Shown: positions 14,471 to 63,343 of the stretch, piece by piece
Layout: every line of letters starts with the position of its first letter
How positions within the stretch are numbered: position 1 is the stretch's first letter
Source: Hydrangea macrophylla
Lineage: Eukaryota > Streptophyta > Magnoliopsida > Cornales > Hydrangeaceae
Direction: 5' to 3'
Length of the DNA stretch: 64,000 bases
NCBI GenBank assembly: GCA_033977485.1
Contig: CM066987.1
Coordinates: forward strand, 53,842,533-53,906,532
The notes under the pieces: model-generated
What the model was told of the DNA's origin: nothing
The model's database searches: none
Seen by the model: only the letters and a program-made list of their open reading frames with translations
Translations under genes and position numbers: made by a program

Positions 14471-14645
14471 CTAATCGATTGCCTTTGTGTTCCAATTGAT
14501 TTCCACTTTTCATATCCCAATCGATTGCCTTGTATTCCAATCGATTGCCATCATGCCGACTTGAATCCATTACATGGCACTATCCCAATCGATTACCTTA
14601 AAATGTCTGATACCAACCGATTGCCACTGGTTCCAATTGATTACC
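14471..14645 (+). repeat. CAATCGATTG palindrome array 1 (LTR A)
   Basis: Exact or near copies of caatcgattg(cc) at about 14472, 14492, 14518, 14538, 14586, 14613 and 14634, separated by unrelated bases. The array ends about 60 bp before the TATA box at 14708. Confidence 0.85.
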
Positions 14646-14707: not shown

Positions 14708-14713
14708 TATATA
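14708..14713 (+). promoter_or_regulatory. TATA box of LTR A
   Basis: TATATA in caatatatagcagccc, followed by a leader that becomes purine-rich (14860-14960). Confidence 0.6.
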
Positions 14714-15014: not shown

Positions 15015-15127
15015 TTGATCTCGTTTATATGAAGTTTTTACATGTTTTAAATAAGGAAATACGTAGCAAATATGTCCCTTCATGTTTATATATGCTGGAC
15101 TATAAGTCTGCTGGCAAAGACTAAGTC

Positions 15128-15300
15128 CCAATCGATTGGGCTCGTTCCCAATCGATTGCCATAGAACCCAATCGTTTGGCATGGTTCCAATCAATTGTTA
15201 TAATGACCTGACTCACAATCGATTGGCATTAGTTTGGATCCAATCGATTGCCTTATTTTCCCAAATCGATTGTTACAATTTTTACCCCAATCGATTAGAA
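15128..15300 (+). repeat. CAATCGATTG palindrome array 2 (LTR A)
   Basis: Copies at 15129, 15149, 15169 (caatcgtttg), 15188 (caatcaattg), 15216, 15241, about 15263 and 15289. It follows the leader and hairpin. Confidence 0.85.
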
Positions 15301-25644: not shown

Positions 25645-25992
25645 TGCATTAGCGACGAAAAACTTTTGTCGCCAATTCATCTTATACAATGGCAACGAAA
25701 TATTTCCGTCACCAATTCATTTTCAACATATGCAATAGCGACGAAATAATTTCGTCGCCATTGCATATGCTGAAAATGAATTAGCGACAAAACATTTCGT
25801 CGCCAATTCATCATATGCAATGGCGACGAATTATTTTCGTCGCTAATTCATTTTCAGCATATGGAATGGCGACGAAATAATTTTGTCGCCAAATATATAA
25901 AATGGTTTGCTTGTATTAGTGACGAAAAAAATTCGTCGCCAATTCATTTTCATCATATGCAATGACGACGAAATAATTTTGTCACTAAAAAT
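25645..25992. repeat. CACTA subterminal palindrome array (GCGACGAAAT-ATTTCGTCGC)
   Basis: About eight units, 40-50 bp apart, each a 20-23 bp palindrome such as gcgacgaaataatttcgtcg followed by attcattttcagcatatgca-type spacers; the spacers also occur in both orientations. Subterminal repeats of this type bind the TNP1/Ptta-type protein in En/Spm elements. Further copies extend left to 25400. Confidence 0.88.
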
Positions 25993-27070: not shown

Positions 27071-27660
27071 TATAACACATACTTGTAGTCACCAACATAA
27101 CACATACCTCCAATCTTTGAAAGTAGTCGCCAAAATCTGGGGAAAAAAAATAAATCAAAATAATCAAATGGTTAAATGATGCTTTGGCATTAGTAAGGGA
27201 ATAATAGCAATCCAAGCAAGGAGTAAGGGAACGAGTTAACAGCTATATGTAACAATCAAAGTTTGATGTACATCTCAATAACCAGATGTCAGAATGCACC
27301 CTCCAAATAGTTAATTTCCAAAAAGTAATAAATGTGGGGATAATTATAAGTAGTTTGAAATAGTCACTGACCAAGAATTCCCACCAAGACTAGATGAGTT
27401 CCCTGGACCATCATAACCTTTGTTGTGCATCCAGTCCAACATGCTTCTCATCTGCTCTTCCAACTTCTTAGTCTTCTCCTCCTCCAATCGGGCCTTCTCA
27501 GCTAACTGCTCCGTAATACCTGTATTTTTTATTTTTTTTGGACAATAATTTTAAGATTTCTACTATAATTAATATTATTTTAGAATCCGTAATTATACAT
27601 GTGTTACCCAACCATGCTTATACCCTAAGCCAACCCCCAAACGACCCCTATCAAGTGGTG

Positions 27661-27845
27661 GTGAGGTGTTATGTGCTTGAGTATTTTGTGAGGTGTTATG
27701 TGAGGTGTCCATATGAGGTGTTATGTGCTTGAGTGTTTTGTGAGGTGTTATGTGACGTGTCCATATGAGGTGTTATGTGCTTGAGTATTTTGTGAGGTGT
27801 TATGTGAGGTGTCCATATAAGGTGTTATGTGCTTGAGTGTTTTGT
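27661..27845 (+). repeat. 52-bp tandem repeats in 5' LTR
   Basis: Units headed gaggtgttatgtgcttgag at 27661, 27713, 27765 and 27818, about 3.5 copies. The 3' LTR has only about two (37230-37310), so the array changed after insertion or during replication. Confidence 0.88.
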
Positions 27846-27852
27846 GTATGTG

Positions 27853-27869
27853 CGTATAATATATATATA
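27853..27869 (+). promoter_or_regulatory. TATA-like tract of LTR module 1
   Basis: gtataatatatatatag before a purine-rich leader (27920-27975) that ends in the hairpin at 28005. Confidence 0.45.
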
Positions 27870-28004
27870 GATATTGGTGGTCCTTCCCCCCTTTCCCTAT
27901 AACCTCCCATTAGTTGTTGAGGAAGAAGAAAAAAATAGAGAGATTGAAGGAGAATGGAAAGGAAAGGAAGAAATCTCAGACCACACCGCAACCTCGAACC
28001 TACG

Positions 28005-28021
28005 GTGAGTTCCTAACTCAC
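28005..28021 (+). promoter_or_regulatory. Donor-like hairpin, module 1 of 5' LTR
   Basis: gtgagttcctaactcac: a 7-bp perfect stem (GTGAGTT/AACTCAC) around a 3-base loop, preceded by tacg so that the 5' arm reads as a splice donor (G|GTGAGT). Confidence 0.6.
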
Positions 28022-28139
28022 TTGGTATACTTAGATTAATGTCCGTATTAACCTTTGTTTATTATTATTATTATCGATTAAACTTCAGGCTTTAATATGT
28101 TATACCCCGATCACATTATTTTGCTACTATTATTAATGA

Positions 28140-28170
<31 letters not shown>

Positions 28171-28350
28171 ATTTTTGTTATTACTATTGTTATCACTTTC
28201 CGGTTAACCTCGTGTTAATATGTTGCACCATGAACATATTATCTCTGTTACTATTTGTAATACCCTGCATTTTCATTGTACTTTTATATTACTTTTTATA
28301 TAGTAATGAGATTCAGTATGCTTGTATTTTCATTCCCTGTAATTTCAGTT

Positions 28351-28534
28351 TCGATCGATCGACCAATCTTCAATCGATTGATAGTTTCATTCTTCAATCG
28401 ATCGAACCTACTTCGATCGCTCGAAACTCTGCCGACCTGAATCTATGACATGTCCCCTTTCTCAAGTAATTGAACCATTCTCAATCGATTGAACCCTGTT
28501 CTCAATCGATCGAACGCACTTCGATCAATCGAAC
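28351..28534 (+). repeat. TTCGATCGATCGAA / CAATCGATTG array 1 in 5' LTR
   Basis: tcgatcgatcga 28351, caatcgattg 28371, tcaatcgatcgaa 28394, ttcgatcgctcgaa 28412, a weaker one near 28463, tcaatcgattgaa 28481, tcaatcgatcgaa 28502, ttcgatcaatcgaa 28520. It ends 50 bp before the TATA box. Confidence 0.88.
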
Positions 28535-28583
28535 ATGGTATTATCAGTATACGTGTTCTACCACCTATACCTTTTCCCCTCCC

Positions 28584-28592
28584 TATATATAT
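28584..28592 (+). promoter_or_regulatory. TATA box of LTR module 2 (5' LTR)
   Basis: TATATATAT in ccctatatatatgttgg. The matching site in the 3' LTR is at about 38063. The leader that follows is GA-rich and was split by the copia insertion. Confidence 0.6.
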
Positions 28593-29663
28593 GTTGGTTC
28601 TATGTGTGTGTTTGGGGTTGCTGAAGTTGAGAGAGAGTTAGAGAGAGGGAGATATTGTTGGGTTTATGCCCTCAAACCATTACTTTATGTATGACATTAG
28701 CATTTTAATATATGGATATCAGTTTTATATTTTGTTATGTATGTTTCTTTCATGAGATGATTTTCAATCCTTAAGTATCATAGTAGGTAATTCGTGTGTG
28801 TATGAGATACATACAAGTGAGATATGAATTACCATCCTTTGATACTTAAAGCATGTCACAGTGGATGACGAGGCTGGATATCTCATCAGGTATACACTGT
28901 AGCATAATTAACTACTATTGGATGGAGTGACTAATCTCAATCACTAGAGTGACACTCTTAGTTAATATGCTAGTGCTTATAGTGCATTGATGGACCTGAG
29001 CTTTCCTATTGACACTTAATGCTGTCAAACAGTCAATAGGAACTCATAACTTGTATAAGGTACGTGTTTTCAATCTTGCGACGATTATGAACACAGACTA
29101 TGGATATGGCTATTTTGACTTACCAATCAGTGAGGTCTATAGAAGATCAACACCTGGGTATCTTGGGTATGTCATGTTCATAGGGTTGTAAACATATATT
29201 GTCAAGACAAAATCTACCCTCTGTTTCAAAGTAAGCATTCTCTTGAGAATGTCACCAAGTCGATTACTGAGAACTGCAGTCTTGCTGATAAGAGTTATCA
29301 ACATGTTTGGTAATCATGAGAGGTGAATGGGACTCAAGGAATACAAGAAGTAATCAAGATTCAAGTTGACAGTAACAGTTATCCGACTACCTGAATATGA
29401 TTACGAATGCTGAAGGTAGAGGGACATTAGTACAACATACAAGTCTAGTTATCGCTTCGGATATGATCTTTTGCGTTGGAGTTCAGTTATCATTTTATAG
29501 TGGAGTAAACGTTAACTGACCAGTTAGTTAGTTTGCTGATCAAAGAGTTTGGTCACGGTGATTAACAAACTGGTCTGAGCCAATAATAAAGAGCCTAGGA
29601 GGTCCCACTCTTAGCTCCGCTAGGAAGCTTGGAAGGGCACATGAGGATCATGTCAAGGCAGGT

Positions 29664-29778
29664 TCGATCGATCGAAGGAGTTTTGATCAATTGAAGTCTA
29701 GGCAGGTTCGATCACTCGACGGTTGTTCGATCGATCGAAGGTTCGATCGATCGAATACACTTCGATCGCTTGAAGGTT
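29664..29778 (+). repeat. TTCGATCGATCGAA array in the copia solo LTR
   Basis: ggttcgatcgatcgaagg at 29662, ttgatcaattgaa about 29683, ttcgatcactcgac about 29706, ttcgatcgatcgaa about 29725 and 29741, ttcgatcgcttgaa 29761. It ends about 22 bp before the TATA box. Confidence 0.88.
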
Positions 29779-29796
29779 AGGTCAGTTCTGGGAATC

Positions 29797-29804
29797 TATA
29801 AATA
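29797..29804 (+). promoter_or_regulatory. TATA box of copia solo LTR
   Basis: TATAAATA in gaatctataaatagggcag, a textbook plant TATA context. Confidence 0.75.
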
Positions 29805-30378
29805 GGGCAGCTACGTACTAAATGTTTTTAATCGTCATTTTATACGTAGAAACTGCAAAAACTGCTTAGGTTTCCCTCAACCTTCCCAATCCTCTCTATT
29901 AGGGTTCCCACCAACCCTAGTCCTTCCTACGAGCATCCATAGGAGTCATAAGAGTGAAAGCCATCTAGTGGAGGCTGTTGGAAGTTGAAGATTTCATAAT
30001 TGGGTTCAAGACACAAAGGTATAATACTTGTCCCTACATTAGTTAGTACGCATCTATAGAATTGACGAGTAGTAAATCCGGGCATGCCAATAAAGTTTCA
30101 TAACTTGACTTTTCTGCTGCGTATTTAAACTTTTAATTTAAACCATTTTTTTCCATCAAATATACCATTATATATACACACTCATATATATATACACACA
30201 CACACCCCGGATATATATACATAAACACTCCCTTACATACACTCCCATCCAATAAGAGAAGAGAATGAGAGGAGCAGAAGAGAGGAGACAGAGAAGGAGA
30301 AGAAAAAAAGGAGAGAGAGAACTCACCCCGAGACCACTCGCAGCTACTTCGAGCTCGCCGATGTCATTGACGTTAACA

Positions 30379-30396
30379 GTGAGTGTCCATACTCAC
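30379..30396 (+). promoter_or_regulatory. Donor-like hairpin, module 2 of 5' LTR
   Basis: gtgagtgtccatactcac: a 6-bp perfect stem and 6-base loop, at the end of a GA-rich leader. Confidence 0.6.
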
Positions 30397-30493
30397 TTAG
30401 TAGCATAGATATGTATGTATATTTGTACTTCGGTAAGATTGGATGGGCCCTGAACGTGTGTGATTGGTCCAGTTCATTCTGAGAAGACAACCA

Positions 30494-30617
30494 GCATTCA
30501 ATCGATCGAACTGCTTTCGAGCGATGGAACACAGACTGATCTCGATCGATCGAACGTGGTTCGATCAATCGAACATGGTAGAATCGATCGAACTCCAGAT
30601 TCTTCAATCGATCGAAC
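30494..30617 (+). repeat. TTCGATCGATCGAA array 2 in 5' LTR
   Basis: Copies near 30496 (ttcaatcgatcgaac), 30517 (degenerate), 30541 (tcgatcgatcgaac), 30558 (ttcgatcaatcgaac), 30580 (aatcgatcgaac) and 30603 (tcaatcgatcgaac). Confidence 0.88.
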
Positions 30618-30869
30618 TTGATAGAATGTTAAATGTTTAGTTTCTTTATACTTGTTGAACTATTAACATGTTTATTATCATACGTTGATGTTGGAAAGCT
30701 GTATTGGAATAATACACACGTGGGATAATGGATATAATGCATTAAATAGTGGAACCCATTGTATAAACAATATTATAATATTGTTAAGTAAATTGAGAAG
30801 GCAACGTGCATAGTAGTGGGTCCATCGATCGCAGAAGTCGATACTATTTATTATTGGTGCGTGTGAATT

Positions 30870-31640
30870 CTGTCGCTAAGATCGTAGGATGTCGGGTGTG
30901 GAAATCACAGGTACTAGGATAGGATCGGAACTTCGTGTCAGGTTTTACGTATGATAGATTTGGACTGCGTGTTGGATTTGGGAGGTTATGTGATTTGGGG
31001 CTTCGTGTCGAGTTTAATATAGCAGGACTACATGTCGAGGGTAGTATGTCAGGGCTGGAGTGTAGTGGTATCTTAGGGCTGCATGCCGTAGTAGCATATC
31101 GGGCTCTATAATAGTATTCAGGAGCTGGGTGCTATAGTGGAGCTAAGTGCTTGTGGAGCTATGTACGGATGTACTACTGTGTGCGGATGGATGTAGTATT
31201 GCTAAGCACTTTGGTATATAGCTGTGTGTGATAGTAAAGTTGTGTGCGGTAGTAAAGCTGTGTGCGATGGTATAGTTGTGTGCAGTAGTATTGCTGAGTG
31301 CTGTGGTATAGTGGTACTGCGTGCTGTGGAATGTCAGGGCTGCATGTTGTATCATATAAGGGCTATGTGTCGTAGTGATAATGTCAGGGCGAGTTGACCA
31401 TAACATATCGAGCGTATTGTCAGGGCGAGTTGGTCATAACGTATCGAGCATATTGGTTGGGCGTGTTGGCCAGGACGTATTGGTTGGATGTGTTGGCCAG
31501 GACGTATTAGGGCGGATTGGCCAGAATACATCAAGGCGAGTTGGCAAGAGAGTGAGGATTACGTGTCTGGTTAACGTATAATGGAAATGGGACTATGTGT
31601 CGGGAATTGACAGACCGTAGGTATAGGACTACGTGCCTAA
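30870..31640 (+). repeat. GT-rich degenerate tandem repeats in 5' LTR
   Basis: Many 18-35 bp variants of gggctgcgtgtcgtagtag and, at 31385-31545, ggcgagttggtcataacgta or cgtgttggccaggacgtatt. Long frames on either strand (for example His/Thr-rich minus frames) are by-products. Confidence 0.85.
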
Positions 31641-31826
31641 TTTATATGAACCCAAGAGTCTATGTTATGTATTGGAATTGGTTGGGACGACGTCCGTTGT
31701 TCTATATTGAGTTAGTGCATACATGCATACAAATGATGAGATGATCCTTTTATTGATACTGTTGTTTTTATATACTGTAAATCTATAGATACTCTGTTAG
31801 TGTTTGCATTCACTCGGCTTTCGTAG

Positions 31827-31970
31827 CTGATGGCATCTATGCTGCTAGATATTCAATGTCCAGCTAGCCAGGATTATGATTATGCAGGAGATGCATACAT
31901 GGATAGAGGCTACGAGGATGGAACCTACGATGATGGAGACTATGCTGGAGATGACTACTACACAAGCTGA
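31827..31970 (+). CDS. Small Tyr/Asp/Gly-rich ORF in 5' LTR
   Basis: 144 bp open after an in-frame TAG at 31824. It reads LMASMLLDIQCPASQDYDYA, GDAYMDRGYEDGTYDDGDYA and GDDYYTS, then TGA. Its counterpart in the 3' LTR (39702-39845) is also 144 bp but has one stop. It has two Met codons near the start. It lies about 300 bp before the LTR end. Related to 16134-16324 and 61205-61348. Function unknown. Confidence 0.4.
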   Translation: MMASMLLDIQCPASQDYDYAGDAYMDRGYEDGTYDDGDYAGDDYYTS

Positions 31971-32288
31971 AGACTGGGAGCTTGCTGTTGATAGTTTATG
32001 CTTATATTTTTAGAGACCATTGTAATAGTTAAGTTTGTAATCAGCATATGTTGCTGTAATGTTTTATTTATATATTCTGCAAACACTTTGGTTTTGTAAT
32101 GGTTAGTATTGAACTCTAATTATATATGTCAACCTTGGAACTTTCCATTTCGTAATTTGAATCATTACTCTGATGGTTTGACTTTGGTTATGGACAATGT
32201 GGTGACTTTCAACTGTCATGGCCTACGGGTCCAAAAAGGAATTTATTTTTCTCGATTTTTGCTACAGCTGGGCGTGACAGGATATTTT

Positions 32289-32300
32289 TGGTATCAGAGC
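32289..32300 (+). other. Primer-binding site, initiator Met-tRNA (gypsy)
   Basis: TGGTATCAGAGC, nine bases after the 5' LTR end. Confidence 0.92.
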
Positions 32301-32541
32301 TAAGGTTTAGTAGTCGCGTTCACCAATTGTCCAATATTTCTTGAGTTTTGAACCTTAAGATTTCTTGAGATAAGGGTTGACTCTAAGAGAACGTTTTTGA
32401 GTTCTTTATATAGACTTGCTTTATTCTTAATGTTATAAAGTTGTAACTACTATATTTAGTTGCAAACTATTTTCTATGACTATTTTTGGATTGGCTACTA
32501 GCCAATAGTTGTTCCTATAGATACCTGATCATACTACATCG

Positions 32542-33590
32542 ATGGTAGGAATGCCTACCCGGAATCGTCCCGTACAGATTGAGGATGCACCCCCAGTACC
32601 CCAGCCTGCTGATCCGACTGGATTGTTTAAAGCCTTTGTGCAGAGGATGGAACAGATCAACAATCCTAACGTGCACAATGGAAATAATCATGGATCACCT
32701 CCAAGACTAGTCGAGGATCAAATTGTAGAGCATTTTCGTCATTTTCGTCTGGAGAAGTTTGACGGGAATACTGAGTCGGGGCAAGCAAAATAGTGGCTCC
32801 GAGAGATGGAAACGATCTTTGACACCCTAGGATGTAATGAGATCGAGAAGCATTAACTGGCGACATTCCAGTTAACTTATGCGGCGGCAGATTGGTGTGA
32901 ATCAGAGAAAGCAACCGTAGGAGGAGATGCGATAGGACGATGCCCTTGATCACATTCAAGGGACTGTTTTGGAAAACTACTTTCCTCAAATAGAGAGGAA
33001 TAAGAAAGAGAGAGAATTCATTGAGCTAAGGCAAGAAAACCTTACCGTAAGGGAGTATACGGTGCAGTTTGAACGATTATCCCATTTTGCTCTTCATATG
33101 ATCGATACCTCAGAGAAGAAGAACACGCAGTATCACCATGGTCTTTCACTGCCACTACAACGGATGACTCGAATCATCAGGGTCAAGCATTCAAAGCTAT
33201 GGTAGGGATGGCAGTCGGTCATGAGGATATTAATGGTCAGGAGCAAGGACGTTTTGGGAATCTACCACCACCCAGGGGTAACCAAGGACCAAGGCCTCCG
33301 ATGCGGTTCCAAGGGAACAAGCACAACTGGACTGGAGAGAGGTAGCAATAACCTGCATTTCCTCAGAATCGCTATGTTGTAACCCAAGCACCTCCCCCAC
33401 AAGGACTCCCTGCTGCTACTGGAAGTAATATCGGTAGATGCTTCAATTGTGGAAAGCTAGGCCACGCGGCTAAGGATTACCGAGCTCCAAAGAACTATAA
33501 CCGGTCAGGCATTCACTATTATAACTATGGCAATCATGGCCATATTAGCAAGGACTGTAAAGCACTCCGTAAGGCATACAACTGACCAAC
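32542..33590 (+). pseudogene. Chromodomain-gypsy gag
   Basis: Gag of the full-length gypsy element. ATG at 32542 heads MVGMPTRNRPVQIEDAPPVP, with VEDQIVEHFRHFRLEKFDGN leading to the capsid domain; similarity crosses stops and frameshifts (WLREMETIFDTLGCNEIEKH, LTYAAADWCESEKA) into 32969-33205 (REFIELRQENLTVREYTVQF). Two zinc knuckles follow near 33435-33560: CFNCGKLGHAAKDY (last Cys is Tyr) and YYNYGNHGHISKDC (first two Cys are Tyr). It is not functional. Confidence 0.85.
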
Positions 33591-33642
33591 TGCTCAGGGC
33601 CAATTTGGACAGGCTCGTATAAATGCTATCCTCCTAGAGAAT

Positions 33643-34002
33643 GTGGGATTTAATGTGGCTGAACAGCAGAACATGGAAGGTACTCTTACATTATTCAGCA
33701 CTCGAGTTAAAGTTCACTTTGTTACAGGTGCTTCGAATTCGTTTATTGCTATCGGGATTGTTAAAGTTTTGGGTTTAGTACCCCAGGCGCTTAATGCAGC
33801 CTTGAATGCGGTATCACCTTTGGGATTAATCGTAAGATTAGGTAAAGTGTGTAAGGACTGTGCCTTAACCCTAGAGGATAGGATTCTTCTTGCAGATCTA
33901 ATCATTTTGTCAATGAAGGAATTTGACATCATCTTAGGATTCGGTTGGCTCGCGAAGTATCGTGCTAGGTTGGATTGTGCCAATATGATGATTACCTTTT
34001 AG
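33643..34002 (+). pseudogene. Chromodomain-gypsy aspartic protease
   Basis: Retropepsin domain, open for 119 codons. The active site reads VHFVTGASNSFI where family members have FDTGASHSFI, so the catalytic Asp is Val (codon gtt for an expected gat). The C-terminal part FDIILGFGWLAKYRARLDC fits the family (usually DVILGMDWL). The frame stops at 34000-34002. Confidence 0.82.
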
Positions 34003-34209
34003 GAAGTCAGCCTTTTGATTTTTAGTGTAACCCCTCTAGCAATGCTTTTCTCACTAGTCGTCTAACAGCTATCGAGAGCTCGAGTTTGAAACTCACGATT
34101 GCACAGATTCCTGTAGTCTGAGACTTTGAGGACGTGTTTCGGAATATTTTAGGATTACCACCTAAGTGGGAGATTGACTTCTGTATCAAGTTAGTGCCTG
34201 GTACTTTAC

Positions 34210-35505
34210 CACAATTGAAGGCTCCTTATTAGATGGCACCAACGGAGATGCAAGAACTAAAGAAGCAAGTACAGGAGCTAGAAGATCTCAAGTTTGTTTG
34301 ACCCAGCACGTCACCTTGGGGAGCTCTAGTGTTGTTCGTCAAAAAGAATGACAGAACTCAACGACTTTGTATCGACTATAGGGAGCTCAACAAGGTCACG
34401 ATTAAGAATAAGTATCCACTCCCAAGGATCGATGATCTGTTTGATCAGTTGCAAGGAGCGATGACTTTCTCGAAGATTAATTTACGATCCGGATATCATC
34501 AACTGTTGGTTCGACCAGAAGATATTTCAAAGACTACTTTCAGGTTGAGTATGAGCCTTATGAATTCTTGGTTATGTATTTTGGATTAACCAACGCTCCA
34601 GCGGTATTCATGGACCTAATGAACAGAGTCTTTAGACCCTACTTAAACCAGTTCATTATCGTGTTCATAGATGATATTTTAATCTACTCAGAGATCGAGA
34701 AAGAACACGATGAACATGTAAGGATCGCACTACAGACCCTCCGAGATAACCAACTGTATGCGAAGTTCAATAAGTGTGAGTTTTGGCTGAAGGAAGTTAA
34801 GTTTCTAGGACATATTGTCTCGCAATATGGAATATCCATAGACTCGATAAAGACAAACGCAATTTTGGATTGGAATATACAACCCACTGTAATGAAAGTC
34901 AGAAGTTTTCTTGGGTTGGTTGGATACTATCGAAGATTTGTGGAAGGATTCTCCAAGATCCCAGGTCCTCTTACTAGACTAACGAAGAAGGATTTGAAGT
35001 TTGAATGGGGTAACAAGCACGAACGCGTATATCAAGAATTGAAGGAGAGATTGACTAGTGTGCCAGTGCTGGTGATACCCAAGAGCGGTGAAAAGTTCAC
35101 CATATATAGCGACGTATAACACCAAGGACTTGGATGTGTTTTGGTGCAAAACGGGAAGGTAATCTCATATGGATCACGATAATTGAAGCCTTACGAGTTG
35201 AATTATCCGACGCATAACCTCGAACAAGCCGCGATTGTCTTTGCTCTCAAAATTTGGAGACATTACCTGTACGGCGAAAAGTTTGATCTGTTCTCGGATC
35301 ATAAGAGTCTGAGATACTTGTTCTCTCAAAGAGAGTTGGACATGAGGCAACAACGTTGGATGGAATTGTTAAAAGATTACGATTTCACATTTCAGTATCA
35401 CCCTGGGAAAACGAATGTAGTGGTTGATGCGTTAAGTCGGAAACCCAAGACGATAGTATTAGCTTTTTTATGGTCAAAGAATGGCAGGCATTGGAAACTT
35501 TAGCT
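34210..35505 (+). pseudogene. Chromodomain-gypsy reverse transcriptase and RNase H
   Basis: RT motifs in order: [40 protein letters not shown] (usually SKIDLRSGYHQ; the first catalytic Asp is Asn), a frameshift near 34560, [31 protein letters not shown] (FIDD intact) and [14 protein letters not shown]. The RNase H part begins FTIYSDV, then a stop, [37 protein letters not shown] and [20 protein letters not shown]. The order and motifs are secure; the gene is broken. Confidence 0.9.
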
Positions 35506-35639
35506 GAATTTGGCATTCAGGCCTTAGGTGTAAGTGAAGGACGATACTTTGGATGTCTCATGGTGCAACCTACCCTCATCAGTCATATTTTGGAGGCACA
35601 ACAGAATAATGAAGGACTTCAGGAGTGGTTCGCGAGCAA

Positions 35640-37010
35640 TGTGGTAAAAGAACCAGAGAAGTAGAGTATTGGTTCGGACGGAGCACTCAAATGCAGAGGC
35701 ATACTTTGTGTGCCTTATGAAGATGATTTTAGAAAGGATGTATTGGACGAAGCTCATAAGTCTCGAATGACTATTCACCTAGGAGGTACAAAGATGTACA
35801 AGGATTTGAAGAAGAACTTCTAGTGGGAAGGTATGAAACGAGGCGTTACGAAACACGTGTCTCAATGTCTCACGTGTAAGCAAGTGAAGGCAGAACATCA
35901 GAAGCCTCCAGGACTTCTACAATAATAACTAGTTCCCGGATAGAAATGTGAGCATATCACTATGGATTTCGTGGTAGGATTGCCAAGATCTCAGCAAAAC
36001 CACGATGTTATTTGCGTAATTGTGATCGACTTACCAAATCGGTGCATTTCATAGCTTATAGTATGTCGTACTCGATCGAACGTCTTAGCCGTATATATAT
36101 ATATATATAACAAGTCGTGCGACTGTACGGTGTACCTGTATCAATCGTATCAGACCGTGATTCAAAATTCACTACAGAGTTCTGGAAGAGTCTACAGACA
36201 GCTATGGGGATGCATTAAACCTGAGCACTGTCTTCCACCCGCAGACGGATGAACAGACTGAACGAGTTAACCAGGTGATGGAGGACATGCTACGAGCGTG
36301 TGTCATTGATTTTGAAAGCTCATGGGAGACTCATCTACCGCTGATAATCTGCATACAACAACATCCACCATTCGAGTATAGAGATGGCACCCTTTGAGGC
36401 ATTGTATGGAAGACCATGCCGATCACCACTGTGTTGGGCAAAGGTTGGAGGCAACCAACTACTTGGACCAGAGTTAGTTCAGGAAACTAATGAGAAGATC
36501 AATATTGTGAAGGAAAGGATGCGTATGGCGCAGAGTAGACACAAGAGTTATGCCGATAAATGCTGCAGAAATTTGGAGTTCAGTGTTGGAGATCACATAC
36601 TTCTCAAAGTATCTCTGGTGCGAGGCATTGTCAGATTCGGACAGAAACAAGGAAAGTTGTCACCATGCTACATTCGACCGTTTGAAATTTTAGAGCGCAT
36701 GGGAAAAGTAGCCTACTGACTTGCACTACCACCCAAGATGTCAGGAGTACATAATGTATTTCATATCAGTACAGAAAGGTTGTACATGATCCGTCACATG
36801 AAATTAACTTCATTGACATTGAGGTAAATAACAATGTGACTTATACTGAAGGACCAGTCTGAATTTTGGATCGAGGAGTCAAGAAGTTGTGGACTAAGGA
36901 AATTCCTCTGGTGAAGGTTCAGTGGAGACACCATGATTAACACGAAGCTTCTTGGGAGTTGGAATCAGAAATGTGTGAGAAGTTTCTAGCTTTGTTTAGT
37001 GACTAGCTAG
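35640..37010 (+). pseudogene. Chromodomain-gypsy integrase with chromodomain
   Basis: Zinc-binding HHCC region: DEAHKSRMTIHLGGTKMYKD and CLTCKQVKAEHQKP. Core: EHITMDFVVGLPRS (first Asp), [12 protein letters not shown] (second Asp), then QTERVNQVMEDMLRAC (Glu). A (TA)n microsatellite (about 36094-36110) lies inside the core. C-terminal region 36384-36719: MAPFEALYGRPCRSPLCWAK and LSPCYIRPFEILERMGKVAY, a stop, then LALPPKMSGVHNVFHIS. The chromodomain at about 36840-37005 reads ILDRGVKKLWTKEIPLVKVQ and EASWELESEMCEKFLALF. Multiple stops. Confidence 0.9.
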
Positions 37011-37038
37011 CTCAGATTTTAGGGACGAAATCTTTGAT

Positions 37039-37047
37039 AGGAGGTGG
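37039..37047 (+). other. Polypurine tract of chromodomain gypsy
   Basis: aggaggtgg, after the conserved gggacgaaatctttgat and five bases before the 3' LTR. Confidence 0.7.
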
Positions 37048-37051
37048 ATTT

Positions 37052-40000
37052 TGCAATATCTATAATTTTTTATTTTATTTTATTAATATAATTTTCAGTT
37101 CCGGGTAGTAATTATAAGATTTCCACTATAATTAATATTATTTCAGAACCCATAATTATACATGTGTTACCCAACCATGCTTATACCCTAAGCCAACCCC
37201 CAAACAACCCCTATCAAGTGGTGGTGAGGTGTCCGTATGAGGTGTTCTATGCTTGAGTGTTTTGTGAGGTGTTATGTGAGGTGTCCATATGAGGTGTTAT
37301 GTGCTTGAGTGTTTTGTGTATGTGTATATAATAAATATACATATTGGTGGTCCTTCCCCCCTTTCCCTATAACCTCCCACTAGTTTTTGAGGAAGAAGAA
37401 AAAAATAGAGAGATTGAAGGAGAAAGGAAAGGAAAGGAAGAAATCTCAAACCACACCGCAACCCCGAACCTATGGTGAGCTCTTAACTCACTTGGTATAT
37501 TTAGATTAATATCTGCATTATCCTTTGTTTATTATTATTATTATTATCAATTAAACTTCAGGCTTTAATATGTTATACCCCGATCATATTATTTCGCTAC
37601 CATTATTAATGATAATAATAATATTATTATTATTAATATTTTTGTTATTATTATTGTTATCACTTTCCGGTTAACCTCGTGTTAATATGTTGCACCCTGA
37701 ACATATTATCTCCGTTATTATTTGTAATACCCTACATTTTCATTGTACTTTTATATTACTTTTTATATAGTAATGAGATTTAGTATGCTTGTATTTTCAT
37801 GTCCTGTAATTTCAGTTTCGATCGATTGAAGAATCGACTAATCTTCAATCGATCGAGAGTTTCATTCTTCTATCGATCGAACGTACTTCGATCGCTCGAA
37901 ACTCTGCCGACCTAAAGCTATGATGTGTCCCCTTTCTCAAGCAATTGAACACTTCTCAATCAATCGAACCCTCTTCTCGATCGATCGATTGAACGCACTA
38001 CAATCGATTGAACATGGTATTATCAGTATACGTGTTCTGCCACCTGCACCTTTCCCCCTCCCTATATATATTTCGGTTCTATGTGTGTGTTTGGGGTTGC
38101 TGAAGTTGAGAGAGAGTTAGAGAGAGGGAGATATACCATTATATATATGCACACTCATATATATACACATACACACACCCCCAAATATATATATATACAC
38201 AAACACTCCTTCACATACACTCCCAGCCAGCAAGAGAAGAGAAGAGAAGAAGAGGAGCATAAGAGATGAGACAGAGAATAGAAGAGAAGAGAAAGAGGAG
38301 AGAGAGAACTCACCCCGAGACCATCCGCGGTTACCCCGAGCTTGCCGACGTCGTCGACGTTAACGGTGAGTGTCCATACTCACTTAGTAGCGCAGATATG
38401 TATGTATATTTGTACTTCGACAAGATTGGATGGGTGTTGAACGTGTGTTAATGGTCTAGTTCATTCTGAGAAGAAAACCAGCATTCAATCGATCGAATTG
38501 CTTTCGAGCGATTGAATACAGACCAATCTCGATCTATCGATCGAACGTGATTCAATCGATCGAACTCCAGATTCTTCAATCGATTGAACTCCAGATTCTT
38601 CAATCGATCCTTGACAGAATGTTAAATTTTTAGTTTGTTTATACCTGTTGAACTATTAACATGTTTATTATCATACGTTGGAAAGCTGTATTGGAATAAT
38701 ACACATGTGGGACAATGGATCTAATGCATTAAATAGTGGAACCAATGTGCATAGTAGTGAGTCTATCGACCGCAGAGGTCAATACTATTTATTATTGGTG
38801 CGTGTGAATTTAGTCGCTAAGATCGTAGGATGTCGAGTGTGGGAATCCCAGGTGCTGGGATAGGATCGAGACTTCGTGTCAGGTTTTACGCATGATAGAT
38901 TTGGACTGCGTGTCAGATTTGGGAGGTTATGTGATGTGGGGCTTCGTGTCGAGTTTAATATAGCGGGACTACGTGTCGAGGGTAGTATGTCAGGGCTAGA
39001 GTGCAGTGGTATCTTAGGGCTACATGCCGTAGTAACATATCAGGGGCTGCATGCTGTAATAGTATTAAGGAGCTGGGTGATATAGTGGAGCTAAGTGCTT
39101 GTGGAGCTATGTGCGGATGTACTGTTGTGTGCGGATGTGCTGTATTATTGCTAAGCACTGTGGTATATAGCTGTGTGCAATAGTAAAGCTGTGTACGGTA
39201 GTAAAGCTGTGTGCGATGGTATAGTTGTGTGATGTAGTATTGATGAGTGCTGTGGTATAGTGGAGCTGCGTCATGTGGAATGTCAGGGCTGCGTGTTGTA
39301 TCATATAAGGGCTATGTGTCGTAGTGACAATGTCAGGGCGAGTTGGTCATAACGTATCGATCATATTGGTTGGACGTGTTGGCCAGGACATACTAGGGTG
39401 GATTGGCCAGAATACATCAAGGCGGGTTGGTCAGAGAGTGAGGACTATATGTTTGGTTAACGTATAAAGGAAATGGGACTGTGTGTCAGGAAATGACAGG
39501 CCGTAGGTATGGGACTATGTGTCTGATTTATGTGGACCCAAGAGTCTATGTTATATATTTGAACTGGTTGGGACGACATTCGTTGTTCTATATTGAGTTG
39601 GTGTACAAACGATGAGATGATACTTTTATTGATAGTGTTGTTTTATATACTACAAATCTATAGATACTCTGTTAGCGTATGCATTCACTCGACTTTCGTA
39701 GCTGATGGTGTTTATGCCGCTGGATATTCGACGTCCAGCTGGCTAGGGTTATGAGTATGCAGGAGATGCATACATGGATAGAGGCTACGAGGATTGAGCC
39801 TACGATAACGGAGGCTATGCTGGAGATGACTACTACGTAAGCTGAAGACTGGGAGCTTGCTATTGATAGTTTATGCTTATGTTTTTAGAGACCGTTGTAA
39901 TAGTTAAGTTTGTAATCGGCATATGTTGCCGTAATGTTTTATTTATATATTCTACAAACACTTTGGTTTTGCAATAGTTAATATTGAACTCTAATTATAT

Positions 40001-40152
40001 TTATCAACCTTAGAACTTTCCAATGCGTGGTTTAAATCATTACTCTGATGGTTTGGCTTTGGTTATGGATAATGTGGTGACTTTCAACTGTCATGGCATA
40101 CGGGTCCAAAAAGGACTTTATTTTCTCTATTTTGTTACTGCGGTGCATGATA
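37052..40152 (+). repeat. 3' LTR of chromodomain gypsy element
   Basis: 3101 bp, starts tgcaatatctataatttttt and ends gcatgata (for an expected TGACA). It parallels the 5' LTR in order: about two 52-bp repeats, hairpin 37475-37491 (gtgagctcttaactcac), module-2 start tgtaataccctac at 37723, palindrome array 1 at 37818-38012, TATA about 38063, GA leader, hairpin 38366-38383 (gtgagtgtccatactcac), array 2 at 38485-38607, tandem repeats 38850-39440, small ORF 39702-39845 (LDIRRPAG, stop, GYEYAGDAYMDRGYED, stop, YDNGGYAGDDYYVS), end. It lacks the copia solo LTR. Small indels separate the two LTRs, so the insertion is not recent. Confidence 0.9.
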
Positions 40153-62423: not shown

Positions 62424-62536
62424 TTCAATTGATTGGAGTAAAGCTAAGTTCGATCGATCGAGATTAGTTTAATCGATTGAAAGTTGTCTGTGCTCAATCG
62501 ATCAAAACCAGTTCGATCTTTGGTCAATTGAGAAGG
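62424..62536 (-). repeat. Palindrome array 2 in LTR C
   Basis: ttcaattgattg 62424, ttcgatcgatcgag 62450, ttaatcgattgaa 62468, tcaatcgatcaaa 62493 and weaker copies to 62536. Confidence 0.75.
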
Positions 62537-63022: not shown

Positions 63023-63030
63023 TATATATA
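63023..63030 (-). promoter_or_regulatory. TATA box of LTR C
   Basis: TATATATA on the minus strand (ccctctatatataac), about 55 bp after palindrome array 1. Confidence 0.55.
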
Positions 63031-63084: not shown

Positions 63085-63240
63085 CGTTCGATCGATCGAA
63101 GTGGGTTCGATCGATTGAAAGTGAGTCCACTTCATGAATCAGGTCGCTTGTTTTTCAAAGCCAGTTTTTCAAGCGTTCAGAAAAGTTCGATCGATTGAAA
63201 AGAAAATTTTTCAATCGCTTGAGTGGACTTCAATCGATTT
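63085..63240 (-). repeat. Palindrome array 1 in LTR C
   Basis: gttcgatcgatcgaag 63087, gttcgatcgattgaaa 63106, gttcgatcgattgaaa 63184, ttcaatcgcttgag 63209 and ttcaatcgattt 63229, upstream of the TATA box on the minus strand. Confidence 0.85.
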
Positions 63241-63343
63241 AAAATGGTATTAAAGGAAAGGTAAAGACAAGCATACTGAATCTTATTTATATCAAACGAA
63301 ATATAAAAGTACGAAAATACAAAAAAAAATAGCGAGTATTACA

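Follow-up and report, generated by a model that had tools for sequence, protein, structure and literature searches.

Long terminal repeats (LTRs) of both the Ty3/gypsy and the copia superfamily in Hydrangea macrophylla carry arrays of a 14-bp palindrome, and within these arrays the palindromes come in pairs: two units lie 19 bp apart centre to centre (14 bp, 5 bp, 14 bp) around a linker of nearly free sequence, and the pairs are set at other distances from one another, with a mode of 25 bp. The arrays are real and strongly non-random. They are also partly known, as the pattern extends one described before in a single group of elements, the Sireviruses. In the window (the whole stretch of 64,000 nucleotides analysed here) ATCGAT occurs 60 times, whereas 100 shuffles average 14.9 and never exceed 25. 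Each of nine arrays has more core units than its own stretch yields in any of 200 dinucleotide shuffles. The arrays, their LTRs and the nearby TATA-like boxes are as follows.

14472..14643, plus strand: LTR A array 1, 7 units of the CAATCGATTG type, spacing 21, 25, 20, 48, 28, 20
14708..14713, plus strand: LTR A TATA-like box, a sequence match and putative promoter element
15127..15297, plus strand: LTR A array 2, 8 units, spacing 20, 20, 19, 28, 25, 22, 25
27513..32289 (approximate ends, by eye), plus strand: gypsy 5' LTR, split by the copia solo LTR
28350..28533, plus strand: gypsy 5' LTR array 1, spacing 19, 24, 19, 68, 21, 19, allowing at most 2 mismatches
28584..28589, plus strand: gypsy 5' LTR TATA-like box, sequence match
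28658..30154 (approximate ends), plus strand: copia solo LTR, target-site match 4/5 by eye
29663..29774, plus strand: copia solo LTR array, 6 units, spacing 19, 25, 19, 16, 19
29797..29802, plus strand: copia solo LTR TATA-like box, CTATAAATA, sequence match
30497..30616, plus strand: gypsy 5' LTR array 2, 6 units, spacing 19, 25, 19, 19, 24
37052..40152 (approximate ends), plus strand: gypsy 3' LTR
37817..38012, plus strand: gypsy 3' LTR array 1
38063..38068, plus strand: gypsy 3' LTR TATA-like box, sequence match
38484..38612, plus strand: gypsy 3' LTR array 2
63087..63242, minus strand: LTR C array 1, spacing 19, 24, 80, 19
63025..63030, minus strand: LTR C TATA-like box, sequence match
62424..62506, minus strand: LTR C array 2, spacing 25, 19, 25

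The first-pass annotation had placed five arrays about 20-60 bp upstream of TATA boxes. All five arrays are real, the TATA starts that it named (14708, 28584, 29797, 38063 and 63030) are exact, and the gaps measure 22-64 bp past the last unit in 5/5 LTRs. A location just upstream of TATA is nevertheless half the picture, because the four gypsy-type LTRs (LTR A, both gypsy LTRs and LTR C) have a second array, absent from that annotation, about 415-605 bp downstream of TATA, the inserted solo LTR not being counted in the gypsy 5' LTR. Two other LTR pairs in the window contain 0 units in 4/4 LTRs, so the arrays are common and not universal. An element of the form GGTGAGT...AACTCACTT, resembling a splice donor or a small hairpin, recurs after TATA (window 28003, 30379 and 14999) and at matching places in the 3' LTR and LTR C; in the LTRs that have array 2, the array starts about 100 bp past it. 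Tandem repeats at window 25645-25992 hold a different inverted motif (GGCGACGAAAT..ATTTCGTCGCC), unrelated to the ATCGAT-type arrays.

The gypsy element spans approximately 27513-40152, and its target-site match is 4/5 by eye. Its LTRs show 288 differences over 3031 aligned positions, and it encodes RVP_2 and RVT_1 in broken frames. LTR C is akin to the gypsy LTR (72.7% over 662 bp). Past locus L044, a relative of LTR A by the likeness of its flanks, the same strand shows gag, a protease match that narrowly misses the cut-off, and RVT_1. The solo LTR sits inside the gypsy 5' LTR, and its label as copia is right, since a full copy of its family on contig C18 encodes Retrotran_gag_2, a zinc knuckle, gag_pre-integrs, SH3_retrovirus and RVT_2. 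By protein domains, RVP_2 and RVT_1 in the gypsy element against RVT_2 in the copia family, the motif is thus present in both superfamilies. The earlier description of the LTRs as unrelated stands for gypsy and copia and falls for the two gypsy LTRs, which are parts of a single element and do not count as independent cases.

The head of the gypsy 5' LTR (window 27513-28258) resembles part of another LTR with its own start: a TATA-like stretch at 27859 lies about 13 bp past the end of a 52/27-bp tandem repeat, and then come a purine-rich leader and a second LTR-like start near 28258. On the minus strand of locus L045 (1100-2782), past the arrays of family J, there are two long reading frames without a Pfam match; a protein search with the longer one returned only two homologues, both unnamed.

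Local conversion of the copia array from the gypsy LTR around it was rejected. With a probe taken from outside the array of the copia LTR there were 6778 first-look candidates; the 40 that were scored comprise the window copy and 39 others at 96% identity. Twenty of these 39 were fetched, and 20/20 of these copies, located elsewhere, carry the array with at least 4 units, in 11/20 with the exact spacing 19, 25, 19, 16, 19. CTATAAATA is kept in 18/20, lying 24 bp past the last unit in 17 and 23 bp past it in one. The copies vary by small losses and one has an extra unit, so the array turns over and is still a trait of the copia family, being kept by all of them. When the window copia array was compared with the eight other arrays in both orientations, its alignment scores exceeded a linker-shuffled null in 2/16 comparisons (p 0.025 and 0.04), and no likeness to the gypsy arrays survives correction for the 16 comparisons.

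The main consensus of the unit is TTCRATCGATYGAA, in which the half-site letter R is G in 67-68% and A in 30-31% of 95 modules. The CAATCGATTG form runs throughout LTR A and its relative L044. Among 115 unique units, counted without LTR A, L044 and the CAGTCGACTG arrays, position 5 of the half-site is A in 230/230 cases; at position 6, 49/51 changes are T to G, which the scan scores as a match, inflating the count. This position-6 variant (ATCG to AGCG, or the mirror change ATCGAT to ATCGCT) is seen about once or twice per array across families, and in TTCRATCGATYGAA arrays for example at window 28412 and 29761. A motif-free search of the arrays for palindromic decamers returned CGATCGATCG, CAATCGATTG and one strong new case, CAGTCGACTG, of which L042 has ten units, nine of them exact, at distances of 20, 49, 21, 24, 18, 50, 21, 54 and 20, again as pairs. 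The same search gave eight other palindromes in five to seven loose copies without a pair layout, and its block-shuffled control gave none. CCAGTCGACTGG occurs 14,039 times genome-wide (control: 30).

CpG observed/expected reaches 1.9-2.5 in 7/9 window arrays, the remaining two, both of LTR A, having 1.0 and 1.21; LTR parts tested outside the arrays have 0.40-0.97. In a test for protection of CpG within arrays, the two gypsy LTRs share 23/34 CpG sites there and 46/93 elsewhere (p 0.07). Divergence between these LTRs is 16/179 in units and 17/122 in linkers, which is suggestive only. There was no signal that symmetry is kept within units beyond chance (p 0.72). An HD-Zip site, CAATNATTG, consists of CAAT and ATTG half-sites one base apart. 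The first-pass annotation had thought of such sites, and CAAT and ATTG half-sites do occur in part of the units; however, most half-sites here are CGAT and two bases lie at the centre instead of one. On the frequency of G at the half-site letter and the two-base centre the HD-Zip reading was rejected.

The pair rule was measured on 50 arrays: 9 from the window, 18 from a random genome sample and 23 around exact 14-mers, the last picked for the motif and not for spacing. Among their 220 neighbour distances 19 bp is found 97 times, followed by 25 (31), 16 (13), 24 (12), 20 (11) and 44 (9). Two short distances (18-21) in succession were observed in 11/170 cases, whereas permuted orders give 41.7 +/- 3.6 and none of 20,000 permutations was as low. 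Since some arrays duplicate one another (for example L025 and L079), reduced sets matter here. When each of 13 flank families is represented by a single array, the count is 6/60 against 15.6 +/- 2.2 (0 of 20,000 permutations as low), and stricter merging by array likeness leaves 4/46 against 8.0 +/- 1.6 (p 0.013). The clearest array, L025, reads 19, 24, 19, 25, 19, 25, 19. L044, whose cores are all of the CAATCGATTG type, reads 20, 24, 19, 48, 20, 28, 20. Exceptions occur, and LTR A array 2 opens with 20, 20, 19.

In the profile of 95 unique 19-bp modules, from which the CAGTCGACTG array was left out, information content is 0.76-2.2 bits at unit positions and 0.02-0.48 at the five positions of the linker. 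Linkers of different families share 27.2% identity and those of one array 32.6%, a little more than in permuted data (p 0.025), so some duplication is visible. Between the two gypsy LTRs the arrays show 5 gaps for 33 substitutions. If substitutions had randomised the linkers, their lengths would be expected to have drifted as well; 19 bp is nevertheless kept, from which we infer that linker length is probably under selection.

The genome of the window comprises 2,221,998,752 bases in 19 contigs. It contains 101,717 exact copies of the 14-mer TTCGATCGATCGAA, and the reversed control gives 8. Two perfect 14-mers are found at a gap of 1-30 in 24,266 places and at a gap of exactly 5 in 9,533 (control 0 for both). 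Among the first 50 plus-strand matches listed, which lie on contig C1 and partly within duplicated blocks, the gap is 5 in 25, 2 in 7, 30 in 6, 28 in 6, 11 in 2, 4 in 2, 21 in one and 29 in one. In a random sample of 19 stretches (190 kb, drawn only from the first 60 Mb of contigs) arrays are present in 8/19. The sample contains 89 core decamers, compared with 7 for the reversed control, and 13 perfect 14-mers, the expectation from the genome density being 8.7. Between about 10 and 1270 kb of contig C1 the 14-mer positions recur in blocks about 503 kb apart, some of them mirrored, which points to a large duplication or an assembly fault. Viral contigs searched with spaced units, the copia LTR start and two reverse transcriptases gave ten loci, none like the window. 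A search of genome contigs gave 14 short prokaryote matches, 7 of them in the bacterium Hoeflea, of which seven records (L014-L017, L019, L021, L024) have two nearby TTCRATCGATYGA-like sites; these are probably unrelated.

The position of array 1 relative to TATAWA, measured from the last scored decamer, is constant within the copia family (24-25 bp in 5/6 arrays), family H (71 bp in 6/6) and the gypsy element LTRs (52 bp in both). Elsewhere it is 51 bp in L049, 61 in LTR C, 44 in family J, 63 in L044 and 84 in LTR A. The direction of the LTR is not known for several arrays outside the window, and three arrays of family F0 have TATAWA on both sides. No TATAWA was present within 110 bp in families F1 (7/7 arrays), I (6/6) and K (1/1). 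TATAWA is not unique to array 1, because LTR A array 2 has one 35 bp downstream. The background is 0.098 TATAWA per 80-bp window and strand.

Judging from these sequence features, we think it reasonably probable, if far from assured, that the arrays are cis-regulatory modules of LTR promoters made of paired sites for a dimeric DNA-binding protein. Each 14-bp palindrome (TTCRATCGATYGAA) would be the site bound by one dimer, as the palindromic unit suggests dimer symmetry. Two sites 19 bp apart with the 5-bp linker of free sequence would form the working module, a dimer of dimers; the fixed linker length suggests a protein-protein distance. The modules would be strung beside TATA, with a further set some 415-605 bp downstream in gypsy-type LTRs; that the TATA distance is constant within families suggests a role in the promoter. 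Since one site and one layout serve both superfamilies, the protein would most likely be a host factor, either exploited by the elements or policing them, with activation or repression as the outcome. The CpGs in the site could make binding methylation-sensitive, and a methylation-sensitive switch is plausible given the CpG enrichment of 7/9 arrays. A literature search for a plant factor with an ATCGAT-type site found none.

The main rival is hairpin RNA. It holds that palindromes 19 bp apart fold to a 14-bp stem with a 5-nt loop and feed small RNAs that direct silencing, as has been proposed for the palindromes of maize Sireviruses, and both arrays can indeed lie in the element RNA, array 2 in the leader and array 1 near the 3' end. 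In maize, small RNAs map to palindrome-rich LTR regions, according to the available text of PMC5311732 and PMC10760457. All of the array stretches folded (6/6) fold better than shuffles (z -2.2 to -3.4), which is no proof of use because any palindrome array folds well. The pairing tests for selection on the hairpin are mixed. Over all arrays except those holding CAGTCGACTG, 19-bp neighbours are complementary at 10.92/14 positions, compared with 10.43 for other neighbours (p 0.02) and 10.65 for non-neighbours (p 0.04). The difference is gone with one array per cluster (10.18, 10.11, 10.14; p 0.42 and 0.44), the full-set contrast with other neighbours has p 0.16 once G-U pairs are allowed, and in the window arrays neighbour complementarity equals that of permuted order (p 0.69). 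We regard the hairpin reading as unlikely. Somewhat less likely again is descent without selection on spacing, by which an old array was spread by recombination, 19/25 is the relic of a 44-bp duplication and the palindromes were kept for some reason. The spacing string 19, 25, 19, 16, 19 is common to the copia family, L073 (family H) and L026 (family F3), and the slight likeness of linkers within arrays shows that some tandem copying took place. However, 19 bp is kept with near-random linkers in spite of the gaps seen between the arrays of the two gypsy LTRs, copia linkers are no closer to gypsy linkers than the shuffled null in 14/16 comparisons, and the CAGTCGACTG array, built on a different palindrome, is laid out in similar pairs.

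Two further explanations have lower standing. The arrays could be anti-silencing targets bound by an element-encoded, VANC-like protein, other families having borrowed the motif and being freed in trans. VANC targets are likewise dense arrays of short motifs, non-coding and made by tandem repetition, and an unrelated element has the VANC6 motif (available text of PMC5735166). Presence in both superfamilies is less simply explained by one family's own protein, and that text reports VANC motifs in one orientation, not as paired palindromes; we consider this account improbable. A functionless by-product, a CpG-rich simple repeat growing by slippage, is the most improbable of all. The CpG excess and a few true tandem copies would suit it, but two arrays, those of LTR A, are not CpG-enriched, and it is contradicted by the pair rule, with its fixed spacing, near-random linkers and thousands of exact gap-5 pairs that the control lacks entirely.

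To return to paired sites for a dimeric regulator, the layout has the look of a docking code that the families share for a DNA-binding protein. A wider proposal, tentative and one that we would sooner bet against, is that one host dimer-of-dimers protein reads a paired-palindrome code common to both superfamilies, that the code amounts to a genome-wide transposon regulon of more than 100,000 perfect sites, and that the CRRTCGAYYG palindromes of tobacco Tnd-1 and Vitis are versions of it. LTR promoters are usually studied family by family. A site and layout common to gypsy and copia elements would offer a single handle on the switching of many transposons in a large plant genome, with the 33-bp module as a ready bait for finding the protein. 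The fixed spacing and free linkers also suggest, from the letters of the DNA, how the regulator sits on it.

Among known systems, the VANC target arrays of Arabidopsis VANDAL elements resemble the present ones in being dense, non-coding and built of tandem repeats of short motifs. VANC proteins remove the silencing of these elements, and the system differs in that VANDALs are DNA transposons and in its non-palindromic motif, single orientation and element-encoded protein (available text of PMC5735166). The maize Sirevirus arrays are alike in lying as palindromes in the regulatory part of the LTR and in being hairpin-capable (PMC5311732, PMC10760457, available text). They contain another palindrome, CACCGGACNNNGTCCGGTG. 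The palindrome-rich cis region of maize Sireviruses is reportedly a small-RNA hotspot, a finding attributed to Bousios and colleagues in 2016.

The closest system is the set of palindromic repeated motifs (RMs) upstream of TATA in 13 Sireviruses (Bousios et al. 2010, PMC2829016). In the available text of that paper RMs are called Sirevirus-specific and absent from classic copia elements, a CGG-CCG core is present in all listed RMs except Tnd-1, tobacco Tnd-1 has 8 copies of ACAATCGATTGT, and Sireviruses are marked by AGGGGGAG tracts and a C-rich LTR end. The arrays described here resemble RMs in having several copies per LTR shortly upstream of TATA, in the five window LTRs first annotated. 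RMs are CpG-rich; here seven of the nine window arrays show a raised CpG ratio and the two of LTR A do not. All three palindromes (CGATCGATCG, CAATCGATTG and CAGTCGACTG) fit CRRTCGAYYG, as do the motifs of Tnd-1 and Vitis (CGGTCGACCG) as given in the available text, and the palindrome of Tnd-1 is that of LTR A. None of the three has a CGG-CCG core, in which Tnd-1 is alike. The host elements differ: the gypsy element has RVP_2 and RVT_1, not the Ty1/copia coding order and reverse-transcriptase type of a Sirevirus. In the C18 full copy of the copia family, no AGGGGGA[GA] was present in L072 and L083 where the AGGGGGAG tracts would precede the 3' LTR, and the C-rich integrase signal was absent from the LTR end, which is T-rich by eye. 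That copy does have the Sirevirus junction CA/ATTGG and PBS TATCAGAGC, as CCATCA ATTGG TATCAGAGC in L084. The available text of PMC2829016 does not describe Ty3/gypsy LTRs, twin arrays or fixed 19-bp pairs, and in the open-licence literature, as far as its text was available, no paper was found that reports the pair rule, twin arrays or arrays of this kind in Ty3/gypsy LTRs. As Tnd-1 has the same palindrome upstream of TATA, the kind of array is known and the palindrome already in print. What is new is the extension to Ty3/gypsy elements and to a copia family lacking the Sirevirus polypurine tracts, the twin arrays and the scale, and the chief novelty is the fixed pair spacing with free linkers.
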